Assembly: GCA_946645685.1 (NCBI GenBank)
Contig: CAMPCJ010000007.1
Coordinates: 1-43,540 of the forward strand
DNA length: 43,540 bases
From: an uncultured Clostridia bacterium
Lineage (GTDB): Bacteria; Bacillota; Clostridia; Oscillospirales; SIG627
Reading direction: 5' to 3'
A model generated the notes under the pieces. It saw only the letters and a list, made by a program, of their open reading frames with translations. It did no database searches and was not told the DNA's origin. Both the position numbers and the translations under genes were made by a program. Each line of letters starts with the position of its first letter. Within the stretch, counting starts at the first letter, position 1. Positions 12,486 to 28,064 of this stretch are shown one piece after another.

Positions 12486-14006
12486 ATGTTCGGCAAAAAG
12501 AAAAAGAAATACGAAGGCAGAACCAATCTGTTCCTGGGCAATCTGGAGGAAGCGGCGGCAAAGAGAGAGGGGACTGAGACGGGCGAGGCGCCCGCTTCTC
12601 CCGCTCCCGCCGCCCCGTCGCCTGCCCCCGTCTCCCGGGAGGCGCGCCGTCCCGCACGCCCCCGCCGCGCCGTGCGCGCGCTTACGCCCGTAAAAGAAGC
12701 GCCCGCGCCGGAAGGAGAGCCGGAGCCGGAAAAAGAGCCCGAGCCGGAAAGAGAGCCCGAGCCGGAAAACGGTGCGCCCGCTCCCGGCACGGAAGAGGAA
12801 AACGCCCCGGCGCCGGCGAAGGGAGCTTCCGCCCCGCCCCCGGCGAACACGGACATTTTCGACGGGTTTGACGCCCCCGCCGCGGAGGAAGCGGCGCACC
12901 CCTTCGGCGCCACCGCGTTTGTGGAGTCCTTCCGGGAGCAGGCGGAAAAGACGCCCGTCCGGAAGAAGCGCGCCCGCCGGGATCTGCGCCGGAAGGCAAA
13001 GCTTCCCCCGCAGGATCTGCCCGGATCCGGGCGGCTGCGGGCATACATCCGGGGAGAAGAGGACAGCCGTCCCAAGCGGAAAGCGGAAAACGGCGTGGAC
13101 GCGGATCTGATGGATCTGTACGCGCCGGAGGGGGGCAAAAAGAAAAAACGCGCCCTCACCCCCGCGGATTGGGTGCGCTACGCCATTCTCTTTCTGTGCA
13201 TCTTCGGCTTTCTCATCGCCGGATACTTTGTGGTGAGCAAGCTGGCGGATTACTACCGGGGCAGCGCTCTGTACCGGGATCTGGCGGATCTGGTCACCAC
13301 CCGGGATCGCTTTGCCGACGAATATCTGGCGCGCTCCGCCCCCATGGGGCTGGCGCTGACCATCGAGGACGTGTTCAACGGCAAGACGGACGCCAACGGG
13401 GTCATCGGCGCCGCCGCCAACCGGGAGGAGCAGGAATTGATCGCCAAGATCCTGCGCTTAAAGCAGATCAACCCCGACACCGCCGGCTGGATCACCATCG
13501 ACAATACCGTGGTCAACTACCCGGTGATGTGGACGAAGACCCGGAACTATTATCTCCACCGGGATTTTTACGGCAAGAATCTGGGCGCCGGCGCCATTTT
13601 TATGGATGAGCGGAACAGCCCCGACATTTCCAAGAACCGCAACACCGTGATCTACGGGCACAATATGGCGGACGGCTCCATGTTCGCCTCCCTTCACGAT
13701 TTTTCCAATCCCTCCACCTTCTACAACGCCTCCATCCGGCTGGTCACCACCGACGGGATCTACGTGTATAAGGCGTTTTCCGTCCACCAATCCGACGCCT
13801 ACGACAACTATTTCGAGACCCAGTTCACCTCCGACCGCTCGTTTGAGGAATTCGTGGGCAATATGGCGGCGATCAGTATGTTCGATTCCGATCAGACGGT
13901 GGGGCGCTCCTCCCGCATTCTCACCCTGTCCACCTGCGAGAGCAGCACCCTGCAGAACAACGAGCGCTACGTGGTGCAGGCGGTCCTGGTGGACGTCATT
14001 CGCTGA
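12486..14006 (+). CDS. Class B sortase with long acidic/proline-rich cytoplasmic N terminus
   Basis: Membrane-anchored transpeptidase that attaches proteins to the cell wall. 506 residues: about 220 cytoplasmic residues rich in Ala, Pro, Glu and Arg (with an EPEPEKEPEPEREPEPE repeat near residues 79-95), one membrane helix (about 228-250), then a sortase domain with His 392 in YGHN, Cys 484 in LSTCES and Arg 494 in NNERYVV. The TLSTC motif and the long helix-strand insertion before it point to class B. The SD GGGAG lies 10 bases before the ATG. It is the last gene of the lon-ysxC-helicase run and is followed by a terminator. No substrate with an NPQTN-like signal is next to it, so it may be the general sortase of the cell; it is much longer than the usual 230-280 residues because of the tail. 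Confidence 0.88.
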   Translation: MFGKKKKKYEGRTNLFLGNLEEAAAKREGTETGEAPASPAPAAPSPAPVSREARRPARPRRAVRALTPVKEAPAPEGEPEPEKEPEPEREPEPENGAPAPGTEEENAPAPAKGASAPPPANTDIFDGFDAPAAEEAAHPFGATAFVESFREQAEKTPVRKKRARRDLRRKAKLPPQDLPGSGRLRAYIRGEEDSRPKRKAENGVDADLMDLYAPEGGKKKKRALTPADWVRYAILFLCIFGFLIAGYFVVSKLADYYRGSALYRDLADLVTTRDRFADEYLARSAPMGLALTIEDVFNGKTDANGVIGAAANREEQELIAKILRLKQINPDTAGWITIDNTVVNYPVMWTKTRNYYLHRDFYGKNLGAGAIFMDERNSPDISKNRNTVIYGHNMADGSMFASLHDFSNPSTFYNASIRLVTTDGIYVYKAFSVHQSDAYDNYFETQFTSDRSFEEFVGNMAAISMFDSDQTVGRSSRILTLSTCESSTLQNNERYVVQAVLVDVIR

Positions 14007-23648: not shown

Positions 23649-24332
23649 GTGGAAATCAACTTGAAAACATTGTTCGGCTGGATCACGAAGAGCATCGTCT
23701 TCATTGTTGTGGTCACGCTGGTGACGGGCGTGGGGACCTTTTTGTATACCAAGTTCTTCGTCCGTCCCACCTATCAGTCCTCGGTGAAGTTCAGCGCCAA
23801 CCCCGGCGATTCCGGCAACAACGGGCTGACCTATTATAAATCCGTGGCGCCGGAGTATATCGAGTATCTGAACGTCCACGAATTTTATCAGCTCGTGGCG
23901 GATCAGCTGCTGGTGGACAAGCACGAGTCCTATGAACCCTCTCAGGTGCAGAGCATGGTCACCTTTTCCGGCGTGGTGGAGGAGACCAGCGCGTTCTACG
24001 CCTACGTAAAGGCGGGCAGCGCTCAGCAGGCGATGGACGTGGCGGAAGCCGTGGCGAAGTGCGCGCCGGAGCGGATCAAATCCCTCCGTTCCACCGACAC
24101 GCTTCTGGTTTCCAGCTATCCCCAGCCGGCCACCAGCCCCTCCTCCCCCAATCTGATCAACAATACGATCTTCGGCCTGATCGCCGGCATCGTCATTTCC
24201 GTCCTTTTGGTGGTCTTCAAGGAGCTGCTGGACAACAACATCAAGACCAGCGAAGAGATCACGGAACTGTTCGGGCTGCCCGTTCTGGGCGCTGTCCCCG
24301 ATTTTTCAAACCAGGAAAAGGAGGGGAAGTAA
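23649..24332 (+). CDS. Polysaccharide chain-length/kinase-activator membrane protein (CpsC/Wzz type)
   Basis: A 227-residue protein with two membrane helices (about residues 16-38 and 173-195) around an extracellular domain, followed by a short cytoplasmic tail ending LPVLGAVPDFSN. The Pro-rich SSYPQPATSPSSPN before the second helix is typical of Wzz/CpsC/YwqC proteins, which activate the partner tyrosine kinase and help set polymer length. It starts with GTG at 23649 (GGGAAG 9 bases upstream). The kinase gene follows directly. Confidence 0.88.
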   Translation: MEINLKTLFGWITKSIVFIVVVTLVTGVGTFLYTKFFVRPTYQSSVKFSANPGDSGNNGLTYYKSVAPEYIEYLNVHEFYQLVADQLLVDKHESYEPSQVQSMVTFSGVVEETSAFYAYVKAGSAQQAMDVAEAVAKCAPERIKSLRSTDTLLVSSYPQPATSPSSPNLINNTIFGLIAGIVISVLLVVFKELLDNNIKTSEEITELFGLPVLGAVPDFSNQEKEGK

Positions 24333-25154
24333 ATGGCGGGCTATTACGCGAGAGGGCGCTATTCCAGCGCCGACGGCAGGCTGTTTGAAGTCAAGGAAGC
24401 TTACCGTACCATCCGTACCAATCTGATGTTTTCCATGGCGCACCCCGGGTGCAAGATCGTGGTGTTTTCCAGCGCCGTTCAGGGCGAAGGCAAAACCACC
24501 ACCGCCGCCAACGTGGCGTTCTCCATCGCCCGGAACAACCACCGCGTCCTTTTGATCGACATGGACTTGCGGCGTCCCCGCGTCCATCGCCTGCTCAAGC
24601 TGTCCAGCGTGCCCGGGCTGACCAATTTCCTGGGCGGCTTCAACGGCATTGAGGAGATCCTTCACCGGGGCGTGTTCCCCAACCTGGACGTCATTTGCGC
24701 CGGCACCATCCCCCCCAACCCGTCGGAGCTGGTGGCAAGCGCCCACATGGCGACCTTCCTGGACGAGCTGAAAAAGGGCTATGATTTTATCATCATCGAC
24801 TCGCCGCCCATGGGCGTTGTTTCCGACGCCCTGCCCCTTCTGCCCCTGGTGGACGGGATGGTTTTGGTGGTTCGCAGCCGTTACACCAACCGCAAGGACG
24901 TGAAGCGGGTGGTGGATCAGGTGCAGTTCATCCAGGGCAAGATCCTGGGCGTGGTGCTGAACGGCGTGCGGGATGAAAAACGGAGTTATTCCTACCGCCG
25001 CGGGTATCGCCGCTACGGGTACGGCTACGGCTACGGGTACGGGTACGGCTCGTACCGCACCGCCGCCGCCCAGCAGCAGGAGGCGCAGGCGCTTGCCGGT
25101 ATTACCCTGAAAGAGAAAAAGACCGGAAAATCCACCGGATCCGGGAAAAAATGA
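24333..25154 (+). CDS. Bacterial tyrosine kinase (CpsD/CapB type)
   Basis: A 273-residue cytoplasmic BY-kinase that works with CpsC. It has EAYRTIRTNLMFS at the N terminus, Walker A SAVQGEGKTTTAAN, Walker A' LLIDMDLRRPR and Walker B FIIIDSPPMG. The C terminus has a Tyr cluster: SYSYRRGYRRYG and then a run of six Tyr-Gly pairs (nt 25014-25049), the autophosphorylation site region. SD GGAGG just before the start at 24333. The gene ends with an ATGA overlap on the phosphatase gene. Confidence 0.93.
   Translation: MAGYYARGRYSSADGRLFEVKEAYRTIRTNLMFSMAHPGCKIVVFSSAVQGEGKTTTAANVAFSIARNNHRVLLIDMDLRRPRVHRLLKLSSVPGLTNFLGGFNGIEEILHRGVFPNLDVICAGTIPPNPSELVASAHMATFLDELKKGYDFIIIDSPPMGVVSDALPLLPLVDGMVLVVRSRYTNRKDVKRVVDQVQFIQGKILGVVLNGVRDEKRSYSYRRGYRRYGYGYGYGYGYGSYRTAAAQQQEAQALAGITLKEKKTGKSTGSGKK
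25014..25049 (+). repeat. Hexanucleotide tandem repeat (TACGGN) in the kinase tail
   Basis: Six in-frame copies of TACGGG or TACGGC, encoding (Tyr-Gly)6. Changes in copy number would keep the frame and alter the number of phosphorylatable Tyr. Confidence 0.9.
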
Positions 25155-25849
25155 AAACGGATATCCATTCCCACCTTCTGCCCGGGATCGATGACGGCGC
25201 GGAGCATTTTGACGACGCGGACAGGATCTTGGGAAAGGTGCGGAAAGACGGCTTGACCCACCTGGCGTTCACCCCGCATTTCTACCCCGCCGGAGACAGC
25301 GTCGGACGGTTTCTCGCCCGGCGGCGCGGGGCGGCGGAGCGGCTCTCTCAGTCGGCGCATTTTCAGGCGCTGCGCGTGACTTACGGCGCGGAGGTGTATT
25401 TGACGGAGGCGCTGTTCAATCACGAAGGGATCGAGCGGCTCGCCTACGAAGGCACCAACTTCCTGCTCACGGAGCTGGAGTACAACGTGCCCTACGGCGC
25501 CGGGGTGGAGCGAAAGCTGGAGCGGCTGATCAACGATTTGTCCCTGGTGCCCGTCCTGGCGCACATCGAACGCTTTCCGGATCTTTTGAATCACCCGGAG
25601 CGGGTGGCGTATCTGAGGGATATGGGCTGTCTGTGTCAGATGAACCTGCAATCCTTCGCCTCGTTTCTGAAGCGGCGGAAAATGCTGCGTCTGGTGTGTG
25701 ACGGTATGGTGGATTTTCTCGGTGAAGATCTGCACCGCGCCCCCCTTCCGCCCGACGTGAAGGAAAAGGCGCTTGAGGAGTTGGAAAAGGCGGCGCCCGG
25801 CTTTGTGGAGCAGTGCGACGCTTACGCCATGGAAACCGTGTTTAAATGA
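25151..25849 (+). CDS. Tyrosine-protein phosphatase of the PHP family (CpsB/CapC type)
   Basis: A 232-residue manganese-dependent phosphatase that removes phosphate from the CpsD-type kinase tail. Motifs: DIHSHLLPGIDDGA (metal-binding His), FTPHFYP, TYGAEVYLT, ELEYNVP, VPVLAHIERFP. The start ATG at 25151 overlaps the kinase stop. The three genes CpsC-CpsD-CpsB form a complete phosphoregulatory switch for surface polysaccharide, but no polymerase or flippase cluster lies beside it. Confidence 0.9.
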   Translation: MKTDIHSHLLPGIDDGAEHFDDADRILGKVRKDGLTHLAFTPHFYPAGDSVGRFLARRRGAAERLSQSAHFQALRVTYGAEVYLTEALFNHEGIERLAYEGTNFLLTELEYNVPYGAGVERKLERLINDLSLVPVLAHIERFPDLLNHPERVAYLRDMGCLCQMNLQSFASFLKRRKMLRLVCDGMVDFLGEDLHRAPLPPDVKEKALEELEKAAPGFVEQCDAYAMETVFK

Positions 25850-25893: not shown

Positions 25894-25911
25894 AAATTTT
25901 ACGTAAAATTT
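25894..25911. promoter_or_regulatory. Perfect 18-bp palindrome upstream of the surface-protein gene
   Basis: AAATTTTACGTAAAATTT ends 4 bases before the strong SD AGGAGGT (25916-25922). It could be a protein-binding operator or an mRNA hairpin near the 5' end. No -35/-10 pair is clear in this gap. Confidence 0.6.
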
Positions 25912-25929
25912 CAATAGGAGGTACCCAAC

Positions 25930-26505
25930 ATGAAGAGAGCTTTGACGCTCGTCCTTTCTCTGGTGCTGGTTCTTTCCCTGCTGCCCCTGGCAGTCAGCGC
26001 GAGAACGCTCACCAATCGGGAGAAAGAGATCTTCACGGAGCTTCGCAGTCCCGCCCCGGCCGGCGATGGGGACTTTGTACTCCCTGAAGTGACGATCAAA
26101 AAGGGCGAGAACTACCTGATGGCGCTCGATGAAGCCCTGACGGACGCGCAGATCGACGCGATCCTGTCCTACGTTCGCGATGCCGAAGCGACGGTGACTG
26201 CCGCCGGTACCGGTAACGTTAAGAACTGGACGCAGGCGACCCGCGATCACGTTCTGATGGACATTGACCTGGCGGCGCAGCAGCTTGGCTTGCGCGCGGC
26301 CGGCCGTCCCGCCGGTAACGGCGAGCACGGTTGGGGCGAGATCTACGTTTACGATCCCGCTACCGGTGCGATCGTTGTGGCGGAAGACGAGCTGATCGTC
26401 AGAAAGACCGGCTCCGACGCCGCGTCCTTCGCGATCGCCGGCGCTTGCGGCCTGGTGGTTCTCTGCGCATGCGCTTTCGTTGCCAAGAAAGTCGAACTTT
26501 TCTAA
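25930..26505 (+). CDS. Secreted protein with a non-canonical sortase sorting signal
   Basis: A 191-residue protein with a signal peptide (residues 1-24, cut after AVSA), an exported domain with alternating acidic helices (DEALTDAQIDAILSYVRDAE) and a tail laid out like a sorting signal: VRKTG (residues 157-161), a hydrophobic helix (about 166-185) and Lys-Lys near the end. Canonical LPxTG is absent; only the TG is kept. The very strong SD AGGAGGT and codon use richer in GGT, GTT and GCT than the neighbours suggest high expression. A class D sortase follows within 7 bases. I do not recognise the exported domain; it may be a structural cell-surface protein. Confidence 0.78.
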   Translation: MKRALTLVLSLVLVLSLLPLAVSARTLTNREKEIFTELRSPAPAGDGDFVLPEVTIKKGENYLMALDEALTDAQIDAILSYVRDAEATVTAAGTGNVKNWTQATRDHVLMDIDLAAQQLGLRAAGRPAGNGEHGWGEIYVYDPATGAIVVAEDELIVRKTGSDAASFAIAGACGLVVLCACAFVAKKVELF

Positions 26506-26512
26506 GGCTTTC

Positions 26513-27184
26513 ATGAAACGCAGCTTGCATGCGGTCAAATCAGTGGCGAAGATTCTTTCGCCACTGATTTTGTCGTTCATCACCGTTTTTTGCGGCTTTC
26601 TGTTTTTGAAAAACACCGTCAGCGGCACCCTGGGCGCCGCCGGCCTGTTTCTGGCGGACGAGCCGTTTACCCCCGTCTTCAACGGGCGGGATATTTTCGA
26701 GGGCTATTCCGGCCCTGCGGATCAGGCGCAGACCATCGATCTGAACGACATCGTCTTTCCCCGGATCGGGGATAAATACGCCCGTCTCTCCATCCCGTCC
26801 TGCGGCATCGAGGACGACGTGTATTTTGACGATTCCGACGAGGCGCTGCGCCGCGGGCTGGGGCAGTATACCGGTTCCCGGATCCCCGGCTACGGCGAGC
26901 CCATTCTCATCGGCGGGCACAACAACCACGCTTTCCACACCCTGGGCAACGCCGCCGTCGGGGACGTGATCACCATCACCACCAACTACGGCGTCTTTGA
27001 ATACCGGATCGTGGAAACGAAGATCCGCCGGGCGGACGACCGCGCCGCCATGGAAGCGGAATTGACGCAGGATAAGGAACAGCTGATCCTGTATACCTGC
27101 TACCCGTTCACCACCCTGAGCCTGACGCCCGACCGCTATTTCGTGTACGCGGACAAGGTGTCCGGGCCCGTTTTGCTCTATTGA
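26513..27184 (+). CDS. Class D sortase, probably dedicated to the preceding protein
   Basis: A 223-residue membrane-bound transpeptidase. One N-terminal helix (about residues 14-34), then the catalytic domain with His 136 in IGGHNNHAF, Cys 196 in YTCYPF and Arg 208 in TPDRYFVYA; the TCYPF-PDRY pattern is class D-like. ATG 26513 has TAAGG 8 bases upstream and sits 7 bases after the substrate gene; the frame is open to 26480 inside that gene. The first 20 codons contain a perfect 14-bp inverted repeat (26537-26570) that may lower expression relative to the substrate. Confidence 0.88.
   Translation: MKRSLHAVKSVAKILSPLILSFITVFCGFLFLKNTVSGTLGAAGLFLADEPFTPVFNGRDIFEGYSGPADQAQTIDLNDIVFPRIGDKYARLSIPSCGIEDDVYFDDSDEALRRGLGQYTGSRIPGYGEPILIGGHNNHAFHTLGNAAVGDVITITTNYGVFEYRIVETKIRRADDRAAMEAELTQDKEQLILYTCYPFTTLSLTPDRYFVYADKVSGPVLLY
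26537..26572 (+). terminator. Perfect inverted repeat inside the sortase reading frame, possible attenuator
   Basis: AAATCAGTGGCGAA (26537-26550) pairs perfectly with TTCGCCACTGATTT (26557-26570) around a 6-base loop, followed by TTGTCGTT. It lies 32 bases after the stop of the strongly expressed substrate gene and within codons 9-20 of the sortase. Confidence 0.6.
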
Positions 27185-27194
27185 GGAGGGACGT

Positions 27195-28064
27195 ATGAAA
27201 CGAGCGATGAAGATCCTGGTCACCGTCCTCCTCCTTTTGGTGGCGGTGCCCGCGCTGGCGGGCTTTGCCGCCTCCCTGTCCCTGAACGGGCTGGGGCGCT
27301 TTGACACCTTGCGCGCCGAAGCGATGAAGAGCGGCTGGGCGGACGGTGTTCGCAGCGAGATCCGGGGGGAATTTGAAAGCATGAACCGGGTGTCGGACAT
27401 CCCCTCCTCCGTCACGGACCTCTTTCTGACGGAAGCGTTCACCGACGAGGTGTGCGCCTATCTTTGGAAGGACGGCGGGGAAGCGTTTCCCCGGGACGCG
27501 TTGACGGCGGATCTGACGGAGCGGATCACCTCTTACGCCGCCGGTGCGCGGGAGCGGGGTGAGATCGCCCTCACCGATGAGGAGTGGCAGGCGGCGGAAA
27601 AGGGCTTTGCCGAAACGGCTGCGTATTACGTGGACGCCGCCCGGGAGGAAATGACCGTGCGGGGGGTGGGATCCTTTCTGCGCTCTCTGACGGATCGGTG
27701 GGAAAAACTGTTTCCCTTCCTGGTGACCGGCTGCGCCCTTCTGGCGGCGGGCGCGCTGGCGCTTTTGGGGCTGATCTATAAAAAGCAGATCCTGCCCTGC
27801 CTGTACGCCGCCTTTGCCGGGGCGGGGCTGACCCTCTTCGTCCCCGGGCTGTGGCTGAAGCTGCAGGATTACGCCGCCCGCCTGCAGATCTATCCCTCTT
27901 ACCTGAAAGCGTTTCTGGTGCGGGTCTACGGCATCGGCTGCGGCAGGCTGTGGATCCCCGGCGCTGTTCTGCTTATTTTTGGACTGTCCCTGGGCGTCTG
28001 GGCGCTTTTTCGCGCCCGGAACACGCAAGGTCAAACGGAAAAACAACAAGGAGAAAGCCAATGA
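27195..28064 (+). CDS. Membrane protein of unknown function in the sortase operon
   Basis: A 289-residue protein with one N-terminal membrane helix or uncut signal (residues 4-26), an extracellular, acidic, helical domain (about 27-170), and three further membrane helices (about 178-197, 203-220, 258-280), ending in a polar tail rich in Gln. SD GAGGAGG. It follows the class D sortase by 10 bases and overlaps the carbonic anhydrase start by four bases. Not recognised; position suggests a part of the surface-protein system. Confidence 0.7.
   Translation: MKRAMKILVTVLLLLVAVPALAGFAASLSLNGLGRFDTLRAEAMKSGWADGVRSEIRGEFESMNRVSDIPSSVTDLFLTEAFTDEVCAYLWKDGGEAFPRDALTADLTERITSYAAGARERGEIALTDEEWQAAEKGFAETAAYYVDAAREEMTVRGVGSFLRSLTDRWEKLFPFLVTGCALLAAGALALLGLIYKKQILPCLYAAFAGAGLTLFVPGLWLKLQDYAARLQIYPSYLKAFLVRVYGIGCGRLWIPGAVLLIFGLSLGVWALFRARNTQGQTEKQQGESQ

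Follow-up and report, generated by a model that had tools for sequence, protein, structure and literature searches.

We report that a small exported protein and the sortase encoded directly behind it, found in a 43,540-nt stretch of clostridial DNA (hereafter the window), correspond, with a probability that we put at roughly 0.78 from comparison of homologous loci, to a dedicated enzyme and its substrate, which use a sorting signal with a basic residue at P3 and belong to a three-gene envelope module. Compared with published sortases, such a basic-P3 specificity is most likely new, whereas non-proline signals as such have precedents.

The first gene of the module (25930..26505; this gene, the rest of the module and the cassette preceding it all lie on the + strand) encodes a protein of 191 aa comprising a signal peptide (aa 1-24, MKRALTLVLSLVLVLSLLPLAVSA), a folded alpha+beta domain (approximately aa 28-151) and a sorting tail (aa 157-191) with the C-terminus ELIVRKTGSDAASFAIAGACGLVVLCACAFVAKKVELF. 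The tail is laid out as IVRKTG, helix and KKVELF; from its reading and the alignment of relatives, V157-R158-K159-T160-G161 (26398..26412) was assigned to P4-P3-P2-P1-P1', and the transmembrane helix predicted from sequence and structure model (aa 170-187) is followed by the basic end (26437..26505 for both). The protein therefore displays the elements of a sorting-signal layout, namely signal peptide, motif, hydrophobic helix and basic end; of 95 relatives, 89 have a signal peptide-like start and 85 have paired basic residues. LPxTG is absent from the 191 residues, where the motif is VRKTG, there is no match to PF00746, and profile searches of Pfam and NCBIfam assigned the protein to no family. 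The structure model (pLDDT 80, above 90 over much of residues 31-120) contains helices at 29-39, 53-65, 72-92 and 102-117 and strands at 122-127, 135-141 and 148-151, with the motif on a low-confidence linker that precedes the helix at 170-187. Fold comparison of this model with the PDB produced no significant match, and searching PDB sequences with the substrate profile returned chance matches only.

A Shine-Dalgarno sequence, AGGAGGT (25916..25922), precedes the ATG of the exported protein by 7 nt. The stop codon (26503-26505) is separated by 7 nt from the sortase ATG at 26513, which has no Shine-Dalgarno sequence of its own; one of at least 6 nt was present in only 1 of 95 relatives, so translation of the sortase is probably coupled. 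An earlier sequence-only reading of this DNA had described the exported protein of 191 residues ending in VRKTG, a helix and Lys-Lys without LPxTG, the near-perfect Shine-Dalgarno sequence and the sortase start 7 bases further on, and all three are borne out. That reading also proposed a very abundant protein with distinct codon use. By similarity to the codons of ribosomal-protein, EF-Tu and GroEL genes, the substrate gene ranked 13th among 369 open reading frames from the window and 400 kb of its genome, a set in which many spurious antisense frames make the ranking supportive only; ribosomal, EF-Tu and chaperonin genes abounded above it, the sortase ranked 34th and the third gene 155th. High expression is thus plausible from the strong Shine-Dalgarno sequence and codon use, and a promoter scan found nothing.

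The second gene (26513..27184) encodes a 223-aa protein of the sortase superfamily (PF04203, E 9e-20, 71 bits against a gathering score of 26.6), in which profile matches and alignment locate the residues His136, Cys196 and Arg208, invariant in 95 relatives. Among class-level NCBIfam models, class D (NF033746, E 6.6e-29) fits it best, with 100 bits under a cut-off of 165; we therefore call the enzyme class D-like, which retains the His-Cys-Arg triad and the nearest class of the earlier assignment to class D, and softens the assignment itself. The signals that partner class D enzymes, LPxTA or LPxTGS with proline at P3, were found in 0 of 88 same-order partners. The class E model scored 33 bits against a cut-off of 160, and a class E trait, Tyr in the S3 subsite together with a non-proline P3, is present (Tyr119, aligned through Phe92 of Clostridium perfringens SrtD).

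Homologous pairs were retrieved by profile searches from seven genomes of the window's family and from about 33 of 394 genomes of its order, and a scan of named genomes added 80 loci, including Ruminococcus bromii, Clostridium methylpentosum, Anaeromassilibacillus, Gemmiger and Fournierella; another genome (G012) holds a further substrate homologue at a contig end. The substrate gene directly precedes the sortase gene in 95 non-identical pairs, which come from the window's order. Sampling of further Clostridia orders provided 41 extra modules. Distribution is patchy, the module not being found in 4 of 6 same-genus genomes, all of them incomplete. One locus (L285) displays the rearranged order sortase, third gene, substrate, and the module is still kept together.

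TG occupies the expected tail position in 88 of the 95 pairs. Among these 88 tails, P3 is Lys in 76, Arg in 1, Ala in 3, Asp in 3, Glu in 2, Ile in 2 and Thr in 1, and never Pro, whereas P4 is Ile in 66, Val in 19 and Pro in 3. By sequence comparison, the family signal is [I/V]-[K/R]-x-T-G, with Lys or Arg at P3 where LPxTG has Pro. The proposal of a new specificity for a signal reduced to x-R-K-T-G was right about the missing proline at P3 and too narrow in its residues, since Arg at this position is unique, within the sample, to the window's own genome. Likewise, the suggested check by homologous pairs and a tail logo confirmed that the tail is conserved and co-occurs with this sortase type, and the conserved element turned out to be other than KTG. 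Motif plus helix recurs in 77 of the 95 homologous pairs; outside the substrate gene, 1 of 368 open reading frames has [ILV][KR]xTG near its end, with no helix after it. The signals of the 41 modules from other orders are LAYTG, LPFTG, LPYTG, LVNTG, VNQTG, VITKTG and VSKTA, rarely IKQTG or VKQTG, and three relatives from another order do have Pro at P3. Loci L289-L318 of another Clostridia order mostly pair a class E-like signal, LAYTG, with a class D-like enzyme bearing Ser at S3, and in a third order (L320-L328) some modules end in K-T-A or R-T-A (VSKTA, VGKTA), resembling LPxTA of Bacillus anthracis class D but with no Pro. Reading the tails of the window's own family as an LPxxTG variant was dropped once sampling widened. 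A search of the open PMC literature, coverage that leaves out most subscription papers and preprints, retrieved no occurrence of IKXTG or related spellings, and in the R. bromii literature sortase signals are mentioned only for the scaffoldins Sca2 and Sca5.

Seven of the 95 pairs have no TG, two of them being truncated gene calls. The earlier reading had named homologues without TG as evidence against its proposal; these exist and are few, 5 of 93 pairs with complete tails: L073 (IKKLG), L098 (VETSS), L099 (IKDTS), L107 and G004 (IEPKGYD), the last being the closest sister of the window's substrate, which has lost TG though the adjoining sortase is intact. In all five the helix and basic end are retained, as would be expected if the tail were a plain membrane anchor, the neighbouring sortase served other proteins and the likeness to KxTG reflected shared ancestry without cleavage. 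We regard this explanation as improbable, since TG is the most conserved pair in the tail among proteins of only 20-30% identity, the motif changes by clade in step with the S3 residue of the enzyme, and the tail is found on no other protein in the tested genomes. In the substrate of G004 (L004:1099-1989), domain and tail are additionally separated by an LRR-like insert of BspA type.

Exclusivity of the tail was assessed with a profile HMM over 12 genomes, which in 11 of them gave a single full match, always the neighbour of the sortase, and elsewhere weaker matches to the helix part only; in the twelfth genome, G004, the neighbour was matched by the helix part alone, in keeping with its loss of TG. 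At least one additional sortase is encoded in each tested genome. In the window this is a class B enzyme (12486-14006; TIGR03064, 162 bits), whose transmembrane helix is preceded by a charged N-terminal extension of about 230 residues; sortases in open frames of comparable length (510-756 aa) also occur in G004, G242, G395, G398 and R. bromii. Other anchors, gathered in the window's genome from searches and partial genome stretches, are SSQTGD, STATGD and STNTGD; R. bromii has AVQTG and SPKTG; and C. methylpentosum, with only two sortases, has some 70 anchor-like tails, mostly [PA]KTG[DE] among those sampled, and one IKATG. General anchors also often have no Pro at P3 ([ST]xTGD in the window's genome, AVQTG in R. 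bromii, AKTG[DE] in C. methylpentosum), and such Pro-less anchors are presumably clients of class B sortases.

The Pro-less anchors of the window's genome, together with the Ala, Thr, Asp or Ile found at P3 in some members, would also suit a general housekeeping sortase of loose specificity that anchors other surface proteins too, its basic P3 being the product of drift. This seems unlikely, if slightly less so than a plain anchor, given that Lys or Arg at P3 in 77 of 88 tails is not readily produced by drift, that every tested genome has another sortase available, and that C. methylpentosum, with two sortases, has one IKATG beside roughly 70 anchor-like tails, mostly [PA]KTG[DE] among those sampled. 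Most simply, the other signals would be handled by the second sortase, class B in the window, and the class D-like enzyme would serve its neighbour alone.

A correlate of the basic P3 was found in the enzyme. Tyr119 of the sortase (codon 26867..26869) aligns with the S3-subsite residue, which is Tyr229 in the class E enzyme SrtE1 of Streptomyces coelicolor, Phe92 in C. perfringens SrtD and Ala104 in Staphylococcus aureus SrtA, and a Tyr at S3 has been proposed to hydrogen-bond the backbone amide of a non-proline P3 (PMC5148588). The profile alignment shows Phe at this position in the solved class D structures 4D70 and 2LN7, and Tyr in 75 of 95 relatives. Across 133 pairs, Lys or Arg at P3 coincides with Tyr in 72 and another P3 with another S3 residue in 45, leaving 16 discordant pairs (12 with Lys or Arg and non-Tyr, 4 with another P3 and Tyr); one locus (L295) couples VKQTG with Tyr amid an order that mostly has Ser with LA, LP or LV signals. 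With shared ancestry counted, the correlation is not significant in an independent-pairs test that, having only 2-3 informative pairs, cannot reach significance; it recovered 2-3 independent co-changes in the same direction and 0 in the opposite one in nearly all pairings. A link between the S3 Tyr and the basic P3 is, from these alignments, a supported hypothesis, in which the two residues would be in contact.

The closest solved relatives of the enzyme are C. perfringens SrtD (PDB 4D70, signal LPQTGS) and B. anthracis SrtC/D (PDB 2LN7, signal LPNTA; match to the family profile at E 2e-22), with which it has the triad in common, and C. perfringens SrtD is likewise encoded in one operon with an anchor protein (PMC4498605). 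In contrast to the solved class D systems, which have Pro at P3 and Phe at S3, the module has Lys or Arg, Tyr, an NCBIfam class D score below the cut-off, and a third gene. The sequence-only reading took Pro as the usual need of known sortases, which fits the approximately 90% of known sorting signals with Pro at P3 (PMC5148588) but passes over precedents. A non-proline P3 and an S3 Tyr are shared with class E SrtE1, which uses LAXTG (PMC5148588), and module relatives in another order have LAYTG, close to that signal; nevertheless, the module sortase fits class E poorly, and its P3 is basic, whereas that of class E is small. Another clostridial sortase with a shifted motif is Clostridioides difficile SrtB, which recognises (S/P)PXTG and leaves NVQTG uncleaved (PMC4155245), but that enzyme is of class B, has several substrates and retains Pro.

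The third gene (27195..28064) encodes a 289-aa helical membrane protein. Its homologue was present in 94 of 94 loci reaching that far, directly after the sortase gene, usually within 20 nt or less, with a product of about 280 aa, as well as in nearly all modules from other orders. The self-contained unit of substrate and sortase envisaged earlier therefore holds as a pairing, in 95 loci, and had missed this membrane protein. No Pfam or NCBIfam family was assigned to it. Its AlphaFold2 model (pLDDT 85) is all helical, and the top Foldseek match is Lit of Bacillus cereus (7b0p) with probability 0.89 but an E of 0.43; in VIA-align, Lit reached Z 9.1 across 183 aa, on a par with ABC transporters that are unrelated to it (Z about 9). 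The Lit family PF07314 was unmatched by the window's protein and weakly matched by 1 of 34 members (E 0.0046). This weak resemblance of the predicted structure to Lit, the lipoprotein intramolecular transacylase, is a lead only.

In the window, the module comes after an exopolysaccharide-regulator cassette, recognised by its matches and its linkage: a Wzz chain-length determinant (23649..24332), a CpsD-type BY-kinase (AAA_31; 24333..25154) and a CpsB/CapC tyrosine phosphatase (25151..25849). Of 43 relatives with approximately 3.5 kb on both sides, 28 have Wzz and BY-kinase next to the module, and none was found in the 400 kb sampled from the window's genome. Because their strand and side vary, we describe this as linkage and not as one operon, and it suggests a role in the exopolysaccharide layer. 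The same linkage, and the presence of a single enzyme per substrate within one operon, as in pilus loci, would accord with a sortase that links its substrate units into a fibre resembling a pilus, or attaches them to polysaccharide and not to peptidoglycan. The likelihood of this we consider low, comparable to that of the plain anchor: neither a conserved internal Lys nor a pilin motif was found in the mature domain, no pilin fold match stood out, and class C sortase models matched the enzyme far worse than class D.

In the dedicated-pair reading, the first gene would provide a small, abundant surface protein that is exported through Sec and whose C-terminal helix retains it in the membrane; the class D-like sortase would recognise [I/V]-[K/R]-x-T-G, cut between Thr and Gly and transfer the substrate onto the cell wall, with Lys or Arg replacing Pro at P3 and Tyr replacing, in the S3 subsite, the Phe of solved class D enzymes; the third gene would contribute a co-conserved membrane partner; and the frequent proximity to the Wzz/BY-kinase cassette suggests that the module helps to organise or retain surface polysaccharide. 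A broader version is possible and more tentative: three-gene modules would extend across Clostridia with one client per sortase, enzyme and signal drifting as a pair through IKxTG, LAYTG, LPFTG, VNQTG and VSKTA, and would include the first sortase lineage to read a basic P3 by way of a Tyr-gated S3 pocket; a new, obligatory membrane partner would belong to it, as would a part in retaining exopolysaccharide.

Given the prevalence of Pro at P3 among known signals, this protein is likely to escape surveys based on LPxTG-like tails, both in R. bromii and in many other gut Clostridia. A sortase using lysine at P3 could be orthogonal to SrtA in protein ligation, and the unsolved question of sortase P3 specificity can be put directly to the test with this natural series of enzyme-signal pairs. 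In many gut Clostridia, the module would bring together a single small surface protein, an anchoring enzyme of its own and a membrane protein as partner; substrate, third gene and the link to polysaccharide regulators would define an uncharacterised envelope system of abundant gut bacteria.
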